Origin: Candidatus Zixiibacteriota bacterium
GTDB taxonomy: Bacteria; Zixibacteria; MSB-5A5; GN15; FEB-12
DNA length: 64,000 nt
Assembly (NCBI GenBank): GCA_040752815.1
Contig: JBFMGC010000004.1
Span: 66,551 to 130,550, forward strand
Direction: 5' to 3'
Made by a program: the position numbers and the translations under genes. Below are positions 40,058 to 50,314 of this stretch, piece after piece (positions within the stretch are counted from its first letter, which is position 1; each line of letters starts with the position of its first letter). A model generated the notes under the pieces. The model was not told where the DNA came from. It did no database searches and worked only from the letters and a program-made list of their open reading frames with translations.

Positions 40058-41728
40058 TTACCTGAATAGTGGCGGGTGCTGTGTATAAAAGTCGGTCGCG
40101 CGCTGATATTTCCATGCCACTTCAAGCAGCGGGCCCTCATCATACAGTCTGCCCACAAAGGTGATGCTGACCGGCGAGCCTTCATCATCGAAGCCGTTCG
40201 GAAGAACGACACAGGGATGTCCGGTCAGGTTTGTCAAGAGCAGGTTGTCGCCCTCGAATGCAGGCGAAACGTATACGTCAATCGAATCCATCAATGCCCC
40301 CATGGCTTCGATTAACTGCGTTCTTGCCCGATTGGCCTGGATATACTCAACCGCCGGGATGAAACGCGAACTGCGGAACACATTCGGCCAGGCGTTTTTG
40401 ACCTGTCGGGTCATCAGGTCATCGCGATTGGTTCGTGTCAACTCGTCAAAGGCAGCAGCCGCCTCCGCGGACAGAATAATGGAGAGCGGATACACCGGCA
40501 GCTCCGGCAGTTCGATCTCGATTAACTCCGCTCCCAATTCCCGCAGTTTGTCCAGCGCCGCGAGATTTTGCTTCATGTACGAAGTGTCGCAATCAAAGTC
40601 GCTCTTTAGATAGCCGATTCGCAGCGTTTTCAAATCGACATCCGGCTGGTAATTGAAAGGCAGGTTAACGGTCGTTGGATCTTCCGTGTCGTAGCCGTAG
40701 ATCGCGTTGAAAACGATCGCGCAGTCCTCCACGGTGCGGCAGATCGGACCGAGTTTGTCCATCGACCAGCTCAGCGCCATGGCGCCGGCGCGGCTGACCC
40801 GGCCGAACGTGGGACGAAGGCCGGTGGCGCCGCATCGAGTCGACGGAGACACGATTGAACCCCACGTCTCTGAGCCGATCGCGAACGGCACCAGCCCGGC
40901 GGCTACCGCAGATGCGGACCCGGCCGATGAGCCGCTCGATCCCTGGGCCGGATTCCACGGATTGCGCGTGGTGTCCTCGTACCAGACATCGCCCCAGGCC
41001 AATTCGCCTAGGGAGAGCTTGGCTACACAGACAGCTCCCGCTTCAGAAAGCTTGTGGATTACCGCGGCGTCACGGTCAATGTATTGGCCCTTATAGGGCG
41101 TCGTGCCCCAGGTGGTCGGGTGGCCGCGGACAGCCAACAGGTCTTTAGCGCCATAAGGAATCCCATGAAGCGGACCGCGATAGTACCCTGCGGCGATTTC
41201 GCTGTCGGCAACGGCAGCCTGCCTCAAGGCAAGCTCCTCGGTCATTGTGATAACGCAGTGCAAAACAGAATCGTATTTCCTCAATCGGCTGAGCGCGAGT
41301 TCGGTTAGTTCCACCGATGTTACCTGGCGGGTACGTATCAGTTCGGACAACTGGCGCACGCTGCTGAAGGCCAGATCGTTCAAATCGGCCGGGCGCTTTA
41401 CCGGCGGAGGCGGCCCAAAGTTGACAGGACGCTGCACGGTATCGAATGTTGCACCTGAGGGAATCGGATTGAAAACGAGAGCGGGCGGCACAGAGTTGTC
41501 AATTGTGGCTGAGCGAATGGCTCGGTAGAAGGCGATGTTGTCCGCCAGATCGGTCAGCATCGAGTCGCGCTCCTCCGGCGTGAACTCAAGATCGATCAAT
41601 CTCGCCGCTTCTGATACCCAGCGGCTGTCCACTTTTACGCTGTCCTCCGCCGCCCAGGCGACTGTGGCCACAGCAACAACAAACAGGCATGAACTAACTG
41701 AGACATTGGTCATCTTAAATGACTTCAT
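40058..41728 (-). CDS. Exported amidase-signature hydrolase
   Basis: 556 residues. Signal peptide MKSFKMTNVSVSSCLFVVAVATVAWA; AAAGGAA before the ATG at 41728. The amidase signature family Ser-cisSer-Lys triad appears as GAKDLL (Lys), GSSGSSAGS (cis-Ser) and ETWGSI (nucleophile). The usual TGGSIR reads TWGSIV here and the usual GGS reads GSS, so substrate choice probably differs from GatA. It is periplasmic or secreted, hence not the tRNA amidotransferase. Substrate unknown; amides or peptide derivatives are typical. Confidence 0.88.
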   Translation of the reverse strand: MKSFKMTNVSVSSCLFVVAVATVAWAAEDSVKVDSRWVSEAARLIDLEFTPEERDSMLTDLADNIAFYRAIRSATIDNSVPPALVFNPIPSGATFDTVQRPVNFGPPPPVKRPADLNDLAFSSVRQLSELIRTRQVTSVELTELALSRLRKYDSVLHCVITMTEELALRQAAVADSEIAAGYYRGPLHGIPYGAKDLLAVRGHPTTWGTTPYKGQYIDRDAAVIHKLSEAGAVCVAKLSLGELAWGDVWYEDTTRNPWNPAQGSSGSSAGSASAVAAGLVPFAIGSETWGSIVSPSTRCGATGLRPTFGRVSRAGAMALSWSMDKLGPICRTVEDCAIVFNAIYGYDTEDPTTVNLPFNYQPDVDLKTLRIGYLKSDFDCDTSYMKQNLAALDKLRELGAELIEIELPELPVYPLSIILSAEAAAAFDELTRTNRDDLMTRQVKNAWPNVFRSSRFIPAVEYIQANRARTQLIEAMGALMDSIDVYVSPAFEGDNLLLTNLTGHPCVVLPNGFDDEGSPVSITFVGRLYDEGPLLEVAWKYQRATDFYTQHPPLFR

Positions 41729-41883
41729 ACGCGTTCCTTTCGATGCTTTCGCCCTGGGTGACGCCGGGGAGTATACTCTATTTGCCGAACCGATGCCAGT
41801 ACGCTGACTGTGCGCCGGGCAAGTCGGGTTCAGAGTGGGATCTGATGCAAAAGATCTCATCCCCGGGTGAGTCGTCTCCCCGC

Positions 41884-42576
41884 CTACAGGTTGCTGACAG
41901 TCAGCCGGTAACCTACCCCGTGAATGCTTGAGATTTCTATTCGAGGATCGTCGGTGAAGTACTTTCTGAGACGAGATACGAACACATCCATGCTGCGGGC
42001 ATTAAAGTAGCTGTCATCACCCCAGATTTCGCGCAGAGCCAGGGTACGATCCAGAGTCTTGTCCTGGTGCACGCAGAGCAGGCGCAGAAGATCGGACTCC
42101 TTTGGGGTTAATCGCCGTTCCTCGCACTCAGACCTCAAGGTGCGCGTTACTGAGTTGAAGGTGTAGCTGCCGATCTCGAACTCAGTGCGCGTATCCTCCG
42201 AGCCAAGGCCGCCGGTTCGCCGCAAGACTGCCTGAATCCTGAGCAGTAGTTCCTCGACTGAAAACGGTTTGGTTATATAGTCATCGCAGCCGATCCGGAA
42301 CCCCTCAATCTTGTCTTCCTTAAGTGATTTAGCGGTCAAAAATACCAGGGGCACATCCTGATTCCTCCGCCTCACTTCGCGCGCAAAGGTGAAGCCGTCG
42401 ACACGCGGCATCATGATATCGACCAGGCACAGATCGAAACGCTCGCGACGGAACTGCTCGAGGCCCTGTTCGCCATTGGCGCAAAGCACCGCCTCAAAAC
42501 CGTTCATCTGGAGATGCTCGCGCACGATCATCCCCAGGTTGGGGTCGTCCTCCAGCAGCAGCACGCGACCCTTCAC
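41884..42576 (-). CDS. OmpR/PhoB-family response regulator
   Basis: 230 residues. Receiver domain with acidic pocket E9-D10-D11, phosphoacceptor D53 (LVDIMMPRVDG) and K103 (ITKPF). The C-terminal winged helix (residues 135-228) ends in VSRLRKYF and IHGVGYRL. The start overlaps the stop of the kinase gene as ATGA, so the kinase is its partner. The four phased boxes at 44222-44256 are a fitting target for this class. Confidence 0.95.
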   Translation of the reverse strand: MKGRVLLLEDDPNLGMIVREHLQMNGFEAVLCANGEQGLEQFRRERFDLCLVDIMMPRVDGFTFAREVRRRNQDVPLVFLTAKSLKEDKIEGFRIGCDDYITKPFSVEELLLRIQAVLRRTGGLGSEDTRTEFEIGSYTFNSVTRTLRSECEERRLTPKESDLLRLLCVHQDKTLDRTLALREIWGDDSYFNARSMDVFVSRLRKYFTDDPRIEISSIHGVGYRLTVSNL

Positions 42577-44177
42577 GCGTCATGCCCCCTTGGGTCCTTG
42601 TCTGCCCGTAGCACGGGGAACCAGAGAATCATCCGGGTGCCGTGCCCTGGTTCCGATTCCACCCGAACTGTTCCGCCATGCGCCCGCACCATCAGGGCGA
42701 CATAGCTGAGTCCCAGCCCGAACCCCTTCGCCTCGTGGATGTTTCCGCGCTGGACACGAAAGTACTTATCAAAAATGTGCTTCTGGTCCTCGGACGAAAT
42801 ACCGACGCCCTGGTCGGAGACGGTGATCCTGATACCGCCGGCCGCATCCTCGGTGCTGATACTGATCTGGGGCGATTCCGGCGAGAACTTGTTGGCGTTG
42901 TCCAGCAGGTTGTAGATGATGCCGGTCAAGTGGAGCTCATCGCCTGCCATGACATTACTGCCGGCCCCAAGATCGCACGTGATACGTCCGCCGCGCTGCC
43001 CGACCTGAAGACTTATGCTTTCCACGGCGTTGCGGATGACCTCGTGCAGATCCACAGGCGCTGTTTGCAGGTGCCCGCGGTGTTCCTCGAGAGCGGCCAT
43101 CTGCAAAATCTTCTCCGCCTGATGGCGCATGCGGCGGTTCTCGTCGACAATGACCTGCGAAAAGCGCCTCACGCGCTCGGGGTCGGGCAGCACATCAGGG
43201 CGCAGGATCGCCTCGCAGGCCAGGGCGACCGTGGAAATGGGCGTCTTGAATTCGTGAGTCATATTATTGACGAAATCAACCATCTGCCGTGCTGCCCGGC
43301 GCTGGGCCACGATGGTCTTCACGGAGTAAGCAAACACGCCTACGATCACTACCATGAAGAAAACCGTGGCCGCCAGCATGGGGCCGATCTGCTGCCACAT
43401 GTAGACAGCCCGCCCCGGGAAGTAGAGCACGAGGCTGTTCGGAACGGCGAGAATATCATGAGGGAATAAGTCGGTTCGGAATTCCGATGCCGCCAACTCC
43501 TCGCGATAACCGGGGGCGCTCTCAATTGGCACGGTGGTGTCGGCTCCCGAGTAAACGGCGTAGACGGGTCTTAAGGCGATGCCATATTCACCCATAGCGT
43601 CGCGAACGAGTGAATCGAGACGGCCAGGATCGATTCGATCGGTTATAGGCAGCCACTGACCTGACTCGATGCGCTCGATCACTCTCTGGATCACCCCTAG
43701 GCGCAGAGAATCGCGCGCGATAACCGAATCCACCGCCAGAGTGCTGTCGCCAACAAAGCGCACCTCCAAATTCGTGTCCCTCAGGAGGTACTGGAACATG
43801 ACGGCCGACGTGTCAGCCGATGACTCACAGACGGCAAGCAGGTGCCTGTCAAGATCCGGAATAGAATCGGCCAGGGCGAACTGAAAGAAGAAGGTCGAGT
43901 CAGTCAGCCGCCTGCCGGCGCCATCATCAGAGATTGTGGCCGCTCGGATTACCATCCGCCGGGCGTTGTCCACCACGTGCAGGGTGGCCGAGATCGTCTC
44001 GGCAGTCTCCAGTCCGCGGGCTATGTCGGACATCGCCGCGAGCACGTTTCGCCGGAAAGACTGCTCTCGCGATTCCATGGCGTTTCCGAGGAGCGATGCC
44101 TGCAGTCCCACCAGTCCGGCCAGCGCAATCACCATGGCGGCCGTAATAATCCAGACGGTTCGGGTCGATAGTCCCAT
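42573..44177 (-). CDS. Membrane sensor histidine kinase
   Basis: 534 residues. First membrane helix at 7-30, a periplasmic domain of about 240 residues (no recognised sensor fold, rich in DSTLAVDSV-like beta segments), and a second helix near 275-297 (MLAATVFFMVVIVGVFAYSV). There is no clear HAMP domain. The H-box is HEFKTPIS, then N-box LLDNANKF, G1 DQGVGIS and G2 GFGLGLSY. The open frame begins 17 codons earlier; I start at MGLSTRT because TATACT lies only 9 bases upstream, so the longer reading would need an upstream promoter. Cognate regulator follows. Confidence 0.92.
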   Translation of the reverse strand: MGLSTRTVWIITAAMVIALAGLVGLQASLLGNAMESREQSFRRNVLAAMSDIARGLETAETISATLHVVDNARRMVIRAATISDDGAGRRLTDSTFFFQFALADSIPDLDRHLLAVCESSADTSAVMFQYLLRDTNLEVRFVGDSTLAVDSVIARDSLRLGVIQRVIERIESGQWLPITDRIDPGRLDSLVRDAMGEYGIALRPVYAVYSGADTTVPIESAPGYREELAASEFRTDLFPHDILAVPNSLVLYFPGRAVYMWQQIGPMLAATVFFMVVIVGVFAYSVKTIVAQRRAARQMVDFVNNMTHEFKTPISTVALACEAILRPDVLPDPERVRRFSQVIVDENRRMRHQAEKILQMAALEEHRGHLQTAPVDLHEVIRNAVESISLQVGQRGGRITCDLGAGSNVMAGDELHLTGIIYNLLDNANKFSPESPQISISTEDAAGGIRITVSDQGVGISSEDQKHIFDKYFRVQRGNIHEAKGFGLGLSYVALMVRAHGGTVRVESEPGHGTRMILWFPVLRADKDPRGHDA

Positions 44178-44186
44178 ACTCAGTTT

Positions 44187-44214
44187 AGTATACGGTAGCA
44201 CGTGGTTCTGCAAA
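44187..44214 (-). promoter_or_regulatory. Promoter for the kinase-regulator genes
   Basis: On the minus strand TTTGCA (44209-44214), 16-base spacer, TATACT (44187-44192). The predicted start site is about three bases before the ATG at 44177, so the mRNA would have almost no leader. Confidence 0.4.
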
Positions 44215-44221
44215 ACCCAAA

Positions 44222-44256
44222 TTAACACTTCTTAACGATCTGTAACGTAACTTAAC
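44222..44256. promoter_or_regulatory. Four direct repeats at 10-bp spacing: response-regulator box
   Basis: TTAAC at 44222, TTAAC at 44232, GTAAC at 44242 and TTAAC at 44252, each five bases followed by five spacer bases, plus an extra GTAAC at 44247. Ten-base phasing places all on one DNA face, as in OmpR/PhoB/CpxR binding sites. It lies between the kinase gene and the divergent PDZ-protein operon. Possible -10 TATTAA at 44280 for that operon. Confidence 0.65.
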
Positions 44257-44335
44257 TCCACAGAGCCGAACAGGCGGGGTATTAATACCGTACAGTTTGC
44301 CAGTTGGACGTGAAACTTCATGAGGAGATTCTTGG

Positions 44336-45139
44336 ATGAGCAAGTCAAAACGGATTCGAACCGGTTTTCTGTTCGTTGTTGTTGCCTTAACCCTGAGTTT
44401 GGGAATTAGCGCCACGGCACAAGACAAGCAGTCGGTTTCAATTCAGGTTGATTCGAGTTATCAGATTGTCGAACTGGGGGCCTCTGTCGAATCCACGCCT
44501 GACGGCCCACGCGTGCTGCGTGTGATTCCGCCGGCCGCTCGCCTGGAGAAATACCGTCAGATCGATATCAAAACGGGTGACTGCATTGTCAGCGCCGGCG
44601 GAGAAAGCGTCAAGACTCTTGAAGAACTGGGGCGTGTGCTCAGCGCCGCGAAGCCGGGTGAGGAGATTAGACTCGGTATTCTAAGGAAGGGCAGCCCGGT
44701 GGTTGTCACTTACGCGGCGGCCACGAACGATGAGATTGCAGCCGCGCGCGAGCTATCCGCCCAGCCGATTACCGAAGTGACTATCGAAGAGGGTGGGCCG
44801 ACTCAGGGCCGCATGATGTTCAGGGTCGAGGCCGATGAGAACTCGGTACCGTGGCCGGAGATGGCCGTATTGCTGAGCAATGACGACGGCAAAGTCGTGG
44901 TAAAACAAAAACTCCCCATGCCGCCCGATTTCCCGATTCCGGCGACATTACTGGAGGGTGATGTAGTTACGGCCCTGCAGGGTCAGCCCGTCTCTAACGC
45001 CTTGGATTTGACCGAACGCTACAACCAGTGCCGGGAGGGGGATACAATTGCGCTGTCTGTAGAGAGCAAAGGGCAGACATCGAACCTCACCTTCATCAAG
45101 CCGAAAGGCCCGACCGGCCTGATCCGGATCAGAAAGTAG
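44336..45139 (+). CDS. Periplasmic protein with two PDZ domains
   Basis: 267 residues. Signal peptide at 1-28 (GFLFVVVALTLSLGISATAQ). The first PDZ is at about 45-120 (GPRVLRVIPPAARL, IKTGDCIVSAGGESV) and the second at about 170-260 (LEGDVVTALQGQPVSNALDL). There is no protease domain, so it is a binding or adaptor protein. GAGGAG precedes the ATG. First gene of the operon that continues with the NEW3 protein and ABC transporter, 12 bases ahead of the next gene. Expression is probably set by the adjacent two-component system. Confidence 0.8.
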   Translation: MSKSKRIRTGFLFVVVALTLSLGISATAQDKQSVSIQVDSSYQIVELGASVESTPDGPRVLRVIPPAARLEKYRQIDIKTGDCIVSAGGESVKTLEELGRVLSAAKPGEEIRLGILRKGSPVVVTYAAATNDEIAAARELSAQPITEVTIEEGGPTQGRMMFRVEADENSVPWPEMAVLLSNDDGKVVVKQKLPMPPDFPIPATLLEGDVVTALQGQPVSNALDLTERYNQCREGDTIALSVESKGQTSNLTFIKPKGPTGLIRIRK

Positions 45140-45151
45140 CGGGAGAGCTCA

Positions 45152-46651
45152 ATGCGACTTGCCTCCGCCGCACTGCTTGTCGTTCTGGCCGGCCTGCTCC
45201 CCCTTGCCCCGGTGCTTGGTCAGTCGGGTGATTTCTTTAATCAGCGCGATGACAAATATCGCCTGCTTGGACTCAAGCGCGCCAAAGAGGCATACGAGGT
45301 CGCACGCCAGGATTTTGAACGCCAGAAGGAGCTTCATTCGCGGCAGCTTATCTCCAGCACGCATCTCGATCAGGCGCGCCGCGCGTTTTCCGATGCCGAG
45401 GTCAACTACCAGCAATCGCTGCTGGCGGTATTGTTCGAGGAACAGTATGTCTCGGTTACTCGTGCCGTAAAGAGTCAGGCGCCCGATGGCCGTAAGCATG
45501 TTCGCCTGACCCTGGCCAACACCTCGGGCGGCTCCGAGGAGTTCCGCCAGTTGATAGGTGTCGAGGACGATCTCTTTCGCTCCTTGCAGCCGGATGTCAC
45601 GCACAACATCTATGTCAGCCTGCTCAACGATGACAACGCAATAATCAGCCAGCCGTATGAGGCTAAGGTCGAAGAACTCCGCTTTGGCGAGCCGAAAGAG
45701 ATCGACTTCACTCTACTTCAGGATCTCGATGCGGTCACGGTCATGTTGATCTACGGCAATGGCGCCCAGCGAAACATGAAGATCTTCCTGCAGAAGGACG
45801 CGTCGGTGAACCGTGTGCTGGTTCAGTCGGAACAGTTCTCACAGGAGGTCGACCTGGGCGAATCAGCCAATTTCGACCTTACCCTCGAGCTGTTCAGCGG
45901 CCTGGACAACACGTTCTCACTCGAGGTCGTAAACCTGCCCAAGTCCATTAACCGCTATTTCACCGATTCAACCGGCGCGGCCCGGCTGAGCCAGGTCAAG
46001 TTCACTGAGAGCAGCCGGAGCAAGCGCGCGGCGCTTAAAGTGACGCTGCCTGATCGAAGCGCCGCCGATGTCGCTATGGACGCCGCTATCCCGTTCTACG
46101 TTCTGGTCCTGCCCCGGGAGAAAGCGCGCCGGCTTCAGGATCTGCCCGCCCGGCAGTGGACGGAACAGGAGATAAAAGGTCTCGACATCGGTTTTGTGCG
46201 GCTCGAACTGATTCCCCGCGGCAAAGGAGAGCTGCTGGTGCGCTCGCCACAGCTTTACTACGCAATTCACAGCGGCGAATCCGTGACTATGGCGGTGGAT
46301 ATTGTCAATGAGGGGTCACGTCGCCTTGACAACACCGAGGTCCGCGCCGACATGCCGCTTGGATGGAGCAAGGAGATCATGCCGCTATCGATTCCTACGA
46401 TCGGTATCGGAGAAGAAGCGCGCGTAAACATGAAGTTCACTCCGCCGGAAAAGATATCCCCCGGGAAGTACGAAGTCCGCCTTCGCACCAGCGCTACGTC
46501 GAACAACCAGCCGGTGCACGCCACCGATAAAACGGTAACGATCGAAATTCAGCCTGCTTCAAATGTCCTGGGCACGATCGCCATCGTTCTGGCACTTGTC
46601 GGATTGGTCGGCGGGATTGTGGTGTACGGCATTCGACTATCCCGACGATAA
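45152..46651 (+). CDS. NEW3-domain membrane-anchored periplasmic protein
   Basis: 499 residues. Signal peptide at 1-22. Residues 30-95 form a charged helical, coiled-coil-like segment (LKRAKEAYEVARQDFERQK). The middle is beta-rich. Residues 375-470 match a NEW3-type Ig-like domain (SVTMAVDIVNEGSRRLDNTEV, ARVNMKFTPPEKISPGKYEVRL). A single C-terminal helix (LGTIAIVLALVGLVGGIVVYGI) plus RLSRR anchors it in the inner membrane. This fits a periplasmic subunit of the ABC exporter encoded next. GGGAGAG before the ATG. Confidence 0.75.
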   Translation: MRLASAALLVVLAGLLPLAPVLGQSGDFFNQRDDKYRLLGLKRAKEAYEVARQDFERQKELHSRQLISSTHLDQARRAFSDAEVNYQQSLLAVLFEEQYVSVTRAVKSQAPDGRKHVRLTLANTSGGSEEFRQLIGVEDDLFRSLQPDVTHNIYVSLLNDDNAIISQPYEAKVEELRFGEPKEIDFTLLQDLDAVTVMLIYGNGAQRNMKIFLQKDASVNRVLVQSEQFSQEVDLGESANFDLTLELFSGLDNTFSLEVVNLPKSINRYFTDSTGAARLSQVKFTESSRSKRAALKVTLPDRSAADVAMDAAIPFYVLVLPREKARRLQDLPARQWTEQEIKGLDIGFVRLELIPRGKGELLVRSPQLYYAIHSGESVTMAVDIVNEGSRRLDNTEVRADMPLGWSKEIMPLSIPTIGIGEEARVNMKFTPPEKISPGKYEVRLRTSATSNNQPVHATDKTVTIEIQPASNVLGTIAIVLALVGLVGGIVVYGIRLSRR

Positions 46652-46679
46652 ACTGCTACATCATGCACGAGAGGTAATT

Positions 46680-47456
46680 GTGGAAAACTACAGTGATACA
46701 ACCAGCCCGCGTCTTGAAGCATTCGGTCTGACCAAGCGATACGAAGACGGCGTACTGGCACTCGACCATGTTTCATTCAGTGTCATGCCGGGCGAAGTAT
46801 TCGCCATGCTCGGCGGCAACGGTGCGGGAAAAACCACGACCATCAACTTGTTTTTGAACCTCCTTGATCCGACCGAGGGAGAGGCCCGGGTCTGCGGCAT
46901 TGTGTCGCACAAGGAACCGCTCCGAGCCAAGGGAAAAGTCGCCTTCGTTTCCGAGAACGTCATGCTCTACCCGAATTTCACTGCGCTGCAGAATCTCGAC
47001 TTCTTCGCCCGCCTGGGCGGCAAAACGGGTTACACCGCCGATGATTACCACCGCGTGCTGGATCGGGTCGGTCTGGCGCGCGAGTTTCACCGCAAACGGC
47101 TCAAGGGCTTCTCCAAGGGCATGCGCCAGAAATGCGGTATTGGCATCGCTATCCTTAAGGATGCGCCGGCTATCCTCCTCGACGAGCCCACTGCCGGACT
47201 CGATCCGAAAGCGGGCCACGAATTCCTCCAACTGCTTGGTGAACTTCGAGCCGAGGGGAAGGCTATTCTGATGTCTACTCATGACATTTTCCGCGCCCGC
47301 GAGGTTGCCGATGTCATTGCCATTATGGATAAAGGCCGCATAATCATGCAGAAAGAAGCGTCGGAATTGGCCGGCCAGGACCTTGAACAAATCTATATGC
47401 GATACATGGCGGGCAGCAACGGAGAGGGCGTCGCCGTGGAGAGTCGTCATGCTTAG
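46680..47456 (+). CDS. ABC transporter ATP-binding protein
   Basis: 258 residues with a GTG start at 46680 (GAGAGGT seven bases upstream); the longer frame overlaps the preceding membrane helix in another phase and is unlikely. Walker A GGNGAGKTT, signature FSKGMRQK, Walker B AILLDEPTAGLD, H-loop STHD. The ABC-2-type exporter family; the FSKGM signature is common among NosF/CcmA-like ATPases. It works with the two permeases that follow. Confidence 0.93.
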   Translation: MENYSDTTSPRLEAFGLTKRYEDGVLALDHVSFSVMPGEVFAMLGGNGAGKTTTINLFLNLLDPTEGEARVCGIVSHKEPLRAKGKVAFVSENVMLYPNFTALQNLDFFARLGGKTGYTADDYHRVLDRVGLAREFHRKRLKGFSKGMRQKCGIGIAILKDAPAILLDEPTAGLDPKAGHEFLQLLGELRAEGKAILMSTHDIFRAREVADVIAIMDKGRIIMQKEASELAGQDLEQIYMRYMAGSNGEGVAVESRHA

Positions 47457-48867
47457 GACGATTGTCGAAAAGGAAATCCGCGACCTGATCGGCTCGACCA
47501 AGTTCGCGATCACTTTCGGAGCGTGCGCAGTGCTGATTATCGCCGCGTTCTATGCCGGCGCGGCCAGATATCACCTGTACCGCAACCAGTACGACGCCTC
47601 CCGCGAACAGGTGCATCGGCAGGTCCGTGCCAATACTGATTGGAATGCGGTGGGCGAGGCGATCGCGTTCCTGCCTCCTGATCCTTTGGCGACACTCGTC
47701 TCCGGTGTATCCAACGATATAGGCCGTACTGCTATCGTAAGAGGGCGCGGTGAACCCACCGTGCAGGACAGCCGCTTCAGCGAGGACCCTATCTACGCCG
47801 TGTTCCAGTTCCTCGACCTTGAGTTCCTCTTCAAGGTGATTCTCTCTCTGTTTGCGATACTGCTCGGATACGATGCCATCAGCGGCGAAAAAGAGCAGGG
47901 CACGCTCCGGTTGTCCTTCGCCAACGCCCTCCCTCGCCATACATATATCGTCGGCAAACTGCTCGGGAGTTCGGCCTTGTTGGGCGCGTCGCTGCTGATT
48001 GCACTGATAGCCGGGGCAGTGCTCCTGCCGATTATGGCGGTGCCGATGTCGGGAGGCCACTGGCTAAGTCTGTTTCTGATTGTGTTGACCGGATTTCTGT
48101 ATTTCGGCGTGTTTCTGACGCTGTCTGTCGGGGTCTCGGCGTTGACCCAGCGTTCGTCGAGCTCTTTTCTCGTGATGCTCGTGATCTGGATTGCCTGCGT
48201 CCTGATAATTCCACGGGTGGCCGTTTTAACTGCGGGCCGTGCGGTCGAGGTTCCGTCGGTGGACGAAATCGCCTCGCAAATCGCCCGCTATGCCACTCAG
48301 TTGCGTGACGAGTACTTCGATGCTCTGAACGACATGTCGATTACCATGGCCGGGGCTGAGGGCGATCCTATCCAGAAACTGAACCAATACATGGATTCGC
48401 TTACTAATGTGCGCCAGTCGAAGATGGATGAGCTGTCCGGCCGGCTCAATGAACGGCGTCATAACGCGCAGGAACGGCAGAGCCACCTGGCCCTGGGTCT
48501 GGCGCGTCTGTCACCCACGGCGTCCCTAACGCTGGCCATCTCGCATCTGGCAGGGACTTCCCTCGCGCTCAGCGAGCGGTTCCATCAGGACGCACTGGAA
48601 TACAGCCGCACGTTCGGCGAATTCAAAAGGGCCAAGACGGGGTTCAATTCCGGCGCCAGCGTGAGGATGATTCGCATCCACGATGGCGCGCCTCAGGAGG
48701 AAGCGGAGCGGATCGATCCGGGAGAAATGCCCCGGTTCGAATTCAAACCGCAGAGCACGCTCGAGGCGCTGGCTGCTTCGGCGGTCGACATCGGCCTTCT
48801 CGCCTTCTTCAACATACTGTTCTTCGCCGGCGCCTTCGTTACCTTTGCTCGCTACGACGTGCGCTAA
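47449..48867 (+). CDS. ABC-2 type permease, first paralogue
   Basis: 472 residues. First helix at about 19-40, then a periplasmic segment of about 110 residues, then five or so helices with AILLGYDAISGEKEQGTLRLSFANALPRHTYIVGK, the ABC-2 NosY-like signature. After helix 5 there is a second soluble domain of about 180 residues, partly helical and Gln/Arg-rich, before the last helix. Starts eight bases inside the ATPase gene; GGAGAG upstream. It is clearly homologous to the next gene, so the two likely form a heterodimeric channel. Confidence 0.88.
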   Translation: MLRTIVEKEIRDLIGSTKFAITFGACAVLIIAAFYAGAARYHLYRNQYDASREQVHRQVRANTDWNAVGEAIAFLPPDPLATLVSGVSNDIGRTAIVRGRGEPTVQDSRFSEDPIYAVFQFLDLEFLFKVILSLFAILLGYDAISGEKEQGTLRLSFANALPRHTYIVGKLLGSSALLGASLLIALIAGAVLLPIMAVPMSGGHWLSLFLIVLTGFLYFGVFLTLSVGVSALTQRSSSSFLVMLVIWIACVLIIPRVAVLTAGRAVEVPSVDEIASQIARYATQLRDEYFDALNDMSITMAGAEGDPIQKLNQYMDSLTNVRQSKMDELSGRLNERRHNAQERQSHLALGLARLSPTASLTLAISHLAGTSLALSERFHQDALEYSRTFGEFKRAKTGFNSGASVRMIRIHDGAPQEEAERIDPGEMPRFEFKPQSTLEALAASAVDIGLLAFFNILFFAGAFVTFARYDVR

Positions 48868-48889
48868 GAACGCCCAAGGGAGTTATCAC

Positions 48890-50314
48890 ATGCTCAGCAC
48901 ATTTATCCAGAAAGAACTTAAAGCGATAGTACAGAGTCCCAAGTTCGTGGGCTCGTTCGTGGTCTGCTCCGTCCTTATCCTCCTCTCCGTTTTCACTGGC
49001 ATTCGCGAGTACCAGTCGGCAACGAGACAATACGAGGCGGGGTCGCAATTGGTCGACGAGGAACTACGTCAGGAGACCTCTTGGGGTCGGCTGGCCACTC
49101 GCACGTATCGCGCGCCGGATCCCATGCAGGTGTTTGTCTCCGGCCTCAGCTATGATATCGGACGATGGTCGACAATCTCCGCGCAAGATCCGGTGAAGCT
49201 GGTCCATAGTGTGTACTCCGATGACCCCATTTTTGCGGTATTTCGCTTTGTCGACTTCGTCTTTATCGTCATGTTTGTGCTGTCTCTAATGGCGATCCAG
49301 TTTACCTACGATGCCGTCAACGGTCAACGCGAATCGGGCACGCTCAAGCTTGTCTTTTCCAACGCCGTGCCGCGGGCGCAATACCTGCTTGCCAAATGCG
49401 CGGGCTCCTGGCTCGGTCTGGTGCTGCCTCTCGGCATCCCAATCCTGCTTAGCCTGCTGTTAGTGTTGGCGATGGGCGTTCCTCTGACCGCTGCACATTG
49501 GATGAGGCTAACCGTCCTGGTCGGTATCTCGCTACTGCTGTTTACGTTCTTCATACTGCTCGGTGTGCTGGTATCGACCCTTACGCGGCGATCCTCCGTA
49601 TCATTCTTGATCGCCCTGTTGGTTTGGGTGGGATTCGTCATGATCATTCCGAGAGCCGGCGTGATGGCGGCGGGAGGTATTGTCGAAGTTCCACGCATGG
49701 CCGAAATCGAGGCGCAACGGGAGGCATATGCCAACGAGAAGTGGACGGAGCATTTGAACAAGATCACGGGTCGTGACTTCTCCCCCGGCCAGGAGTCGGC
49801 GCTTCGGGTACAGGATTCGCTCCACAAAGAGATGGAGAAGGAGATCGAGGCATACGATCGACGGCTGCGCGAGGGTCTCCGCCAGAGTCAGATCAGACAG
49901 GAACGGCTGGCCTGGCTACTGGCGCGTCTGTCGCCGGCCAGCGCGTACAACCTTGCGGCCATGACACTGGCTGAAACGGACACTGACTCGAAAGCCCGCT
50001 ACGAGGACGCCATGGGCCAATATCGCGATCAGTTCAGCCGGTATGTGTCGGCCAAACAGGAAGAATCCGGCGAAACCAGCGGGATTAGAATTACCGTGGA
50101 AACGGACGAGGACGGCGAGAGCAAGCTCGCCGTGGATGCATCGAGAAGCCGCGATGGTCTAGAGATCGACGATCTACCGAGATTTGTCCCACCGGTGGCT
50201 GCACTTGCCTCCGCAATCGCACCCACCGTGGTTGACTTCGGCATTCTGGCCTTTGACATCCTGCTGGTGTTCGCAGCCGCATTCGTCGCGTTCCTTAGAT
50301 ACGATCTGCGATAA
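48890..50314 (+). CDS. ABC-2 type permease, second paralogue
   Basis: 474 residues, same layout as its neighbour: MLSTFIQKELKAIVQSPKFVGSF, a periplasmic loop, FTYDAVNGQRESGTLKLVFSNAVPRAQYLLAK, LTRRSSVSFLIALLVWVGFVMIIPRAG, a second helical domain and the end FLRYDLR (the first paralogue ends FARYDVR). Gene duplication with divergence is evident. AAGGGAG precedes the ATG. The open frame upstream overlaps the first permease in another phase and is not real. Confidence 0.88.
   Translation: MLSTFIQKELKAIVQSPKFVGSFVVCSVLILLSVFTGIREYQSATRQYEAGSQLVDEELRQETSWGRLATRTYRAPDPMQVFVSGLSYDIGRWSTISAQDPVKLVHSVYSDDPIFAVFRFVDFVFIVMFVLSLMAIQFTYDAVNGQRESGTLKLVFSNAVPRAQYLLAKCAGSWLGLVLPLGIPILLSLLLVLAMGVPLTAAHWMRLTVLVGISLLLFTFFILLGVLVSTLTRRSSVSFLIALLVWVGFVMIIPRAGVMAAGGIVEVPRMAEIEAQREAYANEKWTEHLNKITGRDFSPGQESALRVQDSLHKEMEKEIEAYDRRLREGLRQSQIRQERLAWLLARLSPASAYNLAAMTLAETDTDSKARYEDAMGQYRDQFSRYVSAKQEESGETSGIRITVETDEDGESKLAVDASRSRDGLEIDDLPRFVPPVAALASAIAPTVVDFGILAFDILLVFAAAFVAFLRYDLR

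Follow-up and report, generated by a model that had tools for sequence, protein, structure and literature searches.

Four phased TTAAC-like boxes form a predicted operator between an RprY-like two-component system and a divergent PDZ-NEW3-ABC operon

Genes and boxes at the locus

The window, that is, the whole 64-kb stretch of DNA analysed here, belongs to a metagenome-assembled genome of the Candidatus Zixiibacteriota and contains a two-component system and a divergently oriented transporter operon. The sensor histidine kinase gene (42573..44177, minus strand) encodes HisKA and HATPase_c domains, and its start was set at the ATG at 44177, the Met from which the relatives align, and not at the GTG at 44228. 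The adjacent gene on the same strand (41884..42576) encodes an RprY-like response regulator of the OmpR/PhoB family with receiver and Trans_reg_C domains. An amidase-family gene (40058-41860) is located directly downstream of the regulator gene on the same strand. On the plus strand, the first gene of the putative target operon (44336..45139) encodes a secreted protein assigned to the PDZ-domain proteins by its domain call, and its ribosome-binding site, GAGGAG, is found at 44322-44327. The second gene (45152..46651) encodes a NEW3 protein with a signal peptide, a helical hairpin, Ig-like sandwich domains, and a C-terminal helix, which is probably a membrane anchor. These are followed by an ABC ATPase (46563..47456) and two ABC-2 type permeases (47383..48867 and 48683..50314), all on the plus strand; the coordinates of these three are those of the listed ORFs, and the true starts are probably further in. 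Domain content thus upheld the gene calls of a preliminary description of the locus, in which a kinase-regulator pair faces a divergent PDZ-NEW3-ABC operon.

In the region 47383-50314, the permease 1 query matched two adjacent copies in most relatives, with approximately 50% and 35% identity. Permeases 1 and 2 are thus related to each other, which suggests an old duplication and a heterodimeric exporter. Structure gave no indication of the signal or the substrate: the middle of the kinase sensor model was poorly ordered and the sensor gave no significant PDB match, and the NEW3 model matched only generic Ig-like sandwich proteins.

Four boxes lie on the plus strand between the two operons: TTAAC at 44222..44226 (box 1), TTAAC at 44232..44236 (box 2), GTAAC at 44242..44246 (box 3), and TTAAC at 44252..44256 (box 4). 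Their positions and their exact 10-bp period were confirmed on the sequence as first described. An additional GTAAC at 44247-44251 was rejected as a fifth box; it is probably there by chance, because it falls outside the 10-bp phase and has no counterpart in the nearest relative (L032).

The four-box pattern with up to three mismatches occurs at a single place in the window, besides a self-overlap shifted by one unit, and no match was obtained in 100 dinucleotide-preserving shuffles at the same threshold. The window matches all 19 of the fixed letters, whereas none of 300 Markov shuffles of the 64 kb matched more than 16. The preliminary description had proposed a genome-wide search for such box clusters; when up to three mismatches were allowed, no second site was found in the whole 3.19-Mb genome, self-overlap aside. 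A looser search of the same genome for three boxes with two mismatches yielded nothing above the control beyond this locus, and a wider regulon in this genome was therefore rejected.

Promoters on both sides of the array

The predicted −10 sequence of the PDZ-NEW3-ABC operon, TATTAA (44280..44285, plus strand), is located 23 bp after box 4. When 58 distinct sites were aligned, a −10-like TATNTT was found exactly 23 bp past box 4 in nearly all of them, and no conserved −35 hexamer was detected before it. There is no −35 consensus in the window either, and box 4 adjoins the −35 position. The fixed distance of 23 bp together with the missing −35 is the pattern of an activator-dependent promoter. 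In the spacer of the PDZ promoter, a weakly conserved GNAACC (44267-44272; columns 45-50 of the 58-site alignment) was observed half a turn off the register of the boxes.

On the kinase side, the predicted −10 sequence of the kinase-regulator operon is TATACT (44187..44192, minus strand), which is separated from box 1 by 29 bp and from the kinase ATG by 9 nt. A weak −35-like sequence, TTTTGC (44210..44215, minus strand), is suggested by the sequence 17 bp from this −10. Among the relatives, the kinase-side −10 (TATATT or TATACT) has a median distance of 28 bp from box 1, and the distance is 27-29 bp in most loci. The gap between this −10 and the ATG is exactly 6 nt in 13 of 21 loci, compared with 9 nt in the window. 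The stretch 44175-44192 (minus strand), which takes in this −10, has its counterpart in L032-L054, where the −10 usually ends exactly 6 nt before the ATG. With a gap of 6 nt, transcription is predicted to begin at the A of the start codon, and the kinase-regulator mRNA of this lineage is therefore predicted to be leaderless.

These promoters could also be read as targets of repression, with the same regulator blocking either or both of them until it is freed on a signal. RprY of Porphyromonas gingivalis has been reported to act as a repressor (PMC3646045), and the weak −35-like sequence of the kinase promoter has the array immediately upstream of it. However, a repressor does not need strict phasing to a −10, and the PDZ promoter, with its fixed box-to-−10 distance and without a conserved −35, carries the signature of activator dependence. 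We regard repression as improbable, and activation of the PDZ-NEW3-ABC operon from the array is the reading followed below.

Conservation of the array and its association with RprY-like regulators

The NEW3 gene was found on 80 named GTDB contigs from Zixibacteria, KSB1, Ignavibacteria, Calditrichota, Krumholzibacteria, and others, and relatives found through the kinase sensor kept the divergent order of the two-component system and the operon. The proposal of the preliminary description would have been contradicted by loss of the repeats in relatives with this gene order. The intergenic region was compared in 23 loci, in which the boxes and their spacing were kept and the spacers and flanks had diverged. 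Box 1 is TTAAC in all 23 aligned loci and near invariant in the 58 distinct sites, and box 2 is identical in all 58. The boxes carry 1.5-2.0 bits per position against a low surrounding background, and the DNA between and around them showed no conservation comparable to theirs. Boxes 1-3 are mostly followed by A, and box 4 mostly by T. The opening position of box 3 is unconstrained, so that the GTAAC first described for this box holds in the window, but the form common to the relatives is NTAAC. The letters of the boxes have hardly changed across several bacterial phyla.

Of the 133 genomes of the phylum, 42 carried the array when one mismatch was allowed, nearly always at a single site, and a reversed control pattern gave one match in the same 133 genomes. 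A few of the one-mismatch matches (G034, G058, and G111) resemble unrelated tandem repeats. Among NEW3-ABC clusters with at least 4 kb of upstream DNA, the array was present in all 44 that have an adjacent RprY-like regulator and in none of the 16 that lack one (Fisher p = 6.7e-15, a value that overstates independence because the loci are related by descent).

The best NCBIfam model for the window regulator is RprY (NF051850), which it scores above any PhoB model; we call it RprY-like and not RprY because its 303.8 bits are below the cut-off of 370. RprY-like regulators are common in Bacteroidia, in which the gene beside the kinase differs from that of the NEW3-type loci and the divergent neighbours vary. 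TTAAC-N5-TTAAC was found upstream of 44 of 72 Bacteroidia RprY-like kinases on one strand and upstream of 0 of 72 on the other, with 0.002 expected per region. The distances between TTAAC pairs on the strand opposite to the kinase peaked at 10 bp (54 pairs), followed by 21, 11, and 20 bp, and no same-strand pair at any of these four distances was found in the 72 upstream regions. Four-box arrays in Bacteroidia have spacings of 10-10-11 or 11-10-11, in contrast to 10-10-10 at the NEW3-type loci; the 10-10-11 form was seen in L218, L237, L250, L256, L267, L269, and L273. A regulator above the RprY cut-off (L228, 428 bits) has TTAAC-N5-TTAAC approximately 40 bp upstream of its kinase. In 23 of the 72 Bacteroidia loci, no box chain was detected upstream of the kinase despite recognition helices that look no different, and the sites of these loci may be elsewhere or diverged.

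The recognition helix RSMDV-(F/Y)-I-x-K-LRK is common to the NEW3-type and Bacteroidia groups, and the remaining OmpR-type regulators encoded in the window genome have different recognition helices. The boxes track the regulator and not the transporter target. Since they are absent where the regulator is absent and kept beside a different neighbour, the regulator is indicated as the binder.

Six Bacteroidia loci (L250, L253, L256, L263, L271, and L276) encode short charged secreted proteins opposite the RprY-like kinases; several of these share a 'KI.DGDTT'-like start, and some have a type IX sorting tail. Such proteins are possibly the usual target in Bacteroidia. In L202, an array is flanked on one side by a kinase-regulator pair with 43% identity and on the other by a small exported protein, which is followed by a long exported protein. 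In two related Bacteroidota genomes (L203 and L204), a four-box array at approximately 7.2-7.5 kb precedes a long exported protein, and no RprY-like gene or pair was found near these arrays, which are possible distant regulon members.

The L203 and L204 arrays would also fit binding by another transcription factor, for which the adjacent regulator is a mere neighbour. Against this reading stand the 16 clusters that lack both regulator and array and the related boxes that persist at regulator loci with different neighbours. In addition, binding to direct repeats of 10-11 bp is known for OmpR-type regulators. Another factor is considered very unlikely. That the boxes lack a regulatory function, being a tandem repeat from chance or mutation or else an RNA element, is close to negligible as an explanation: TTAAC-rich short tandem repeats do occur in a few unrelated genomes, with 10-bp repeats that match the pattern (the matches in G522 and G164 were set aside as such), but the shuffles, which give zero expected by chance, and boxes fixed across phyla while spacers vary rule out a chance origin, and the leader folds no better than its shuffles (z = 0.72) and has no Rfam match.

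Proposed operator and comparison with known systems

The four boxes are very probably a dedicated OmpR/PhoB-type operator of the adjacent RprY-like system, which would activate the transporter operon and autoregulate the kinase-regulator operon. Several features expected of an operator of this family are found together here: a neighbouring regulator with receiver and Trans_reg_C domains, direct repeats in the 10-11 bp range, and a phase to the −10 that is fixed on the PDZ side and, on the kinase side, held within 27-29 bp in most loci. We infer that the phosphorylated regulator would bind head to tail as two dimers, with one DNA-binding domain per 10-bp unit and every bound unit facing the same side of the helix. 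The unit nearest the PDZ gene would reach the place of the missing −35, so that the regulator would recruit RNA polymerase and switch on transcription of the PDZ-NEW3-ABC-permease operon. Seen from the kinase promoter, the array has the opposite orientation and lies approximately 28 bp from the −10; there it would mediate autoregulation of the kinase-regulator operon, most likely positive. Because the window genome has this single site, the circuit would be an almost private one that serves a cell-envelope ABC exporter.

The initial proposal of one operator for both operons is supported by the conserved −10 sequences at near-fixed distances on both sides. It stands for this locus, but the same kind of operator also accompanies RprY-like regulators beyond the PDZ-NEW3-ABC operon. 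On balance, we favour the view that RprY-like regulators throughout the FCB superphylum inherited TTAAC-N5-TTAAC direct repeats as their ancestral operator. The site would have been kept at the regulator's own promoter while the divergent target changed: Zixibacteria and relatives have an envelope ABC exporter in this place, and some Bacteroidia have secreted or outer-membrane proteins. The Zixibacteria form with four boxes would then be a one-site private circuit with a leaderless kinase-regulator mRNA.

RprY has been studied for years in Bacteroides and Porphyromonas, and a phased, oriented TTAAC repeat provides a concrete motif to test. As a motif proposed for the whole regulator family, it offers a route to regulon prediction across FCB bacteria. 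The locus also draws attention to an envelope ABC system that is widespread and apparently uncharacterised, with its expression linked to a single dedicated sensor, in lineages of which few members have been cultured.

Operators of the OmpR/PhoB type are already known, and the present array would be a further case. The core site of Bacillus subtilis PhoP consists of four TTAACA-like repeats approximately 11 bp apart. The array resembles it in the number of repeats and nearly in the hexamer, given the A that mostly follows boxes 1-3, but B. subtilis PhoP serves phosphate control and the operon here has no phosphate genes. The site of Staphylococcus aureus SaeR, GTTAA-N6-GTTAA (PMC5083920), is likewise a direct repeat, with a half-site almost identical on the other strand; it has two repeats with an 11-bp period, in contrast to four with a 10-bp period here, and the N6 spacing does not occur in the array.

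Salmonella PhoP, also an OmpR-family regulator, offers a parallel for the promoter geometry. Its activated promoters include some with direct boxes 21-23 nt (two turns) from the −10 and some with reverse boxes at half-integral turns, starting from a distance of 30 nt; no activity was seen for a direct box at 28 nt (PMC3335776). The PDZ side matches the direct-box geometry. The kinase side is close to the reverse-box one, a likeness that is approximate because its distance of about 28 bp falls short of the 30 nt at which reverse boxes begin and is that of the inactive direct box. One array could therefore plausibly serve both promoters. PhoP differs in controlling many promoters, whereas here two divergent promoters share four repeats at a single genomic site.

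Among the closest known systems is RprX/RprY of Bacteroidetes (NF051850). P. gingivalis RprY is reported to bind promoters including its own, and more so when phosphorylated (PMC5706477 for its own promoter). No stated binding motif was found in the text of the P. gingivalis RprY papers covered here (PMC3646045, PMC6032018, and PMC5706477). The window regulator differs from RprY in its score below the family cut-off and in its place beside a PDZ-NEW3-ABC operon. It shares with RprX/RprY the best-matching family, the same recognition helix, the TTAAC-N5-TTAAC repeat as seen in L228, and, if the proposed circuit is correct, the autoregulation reported for that system.
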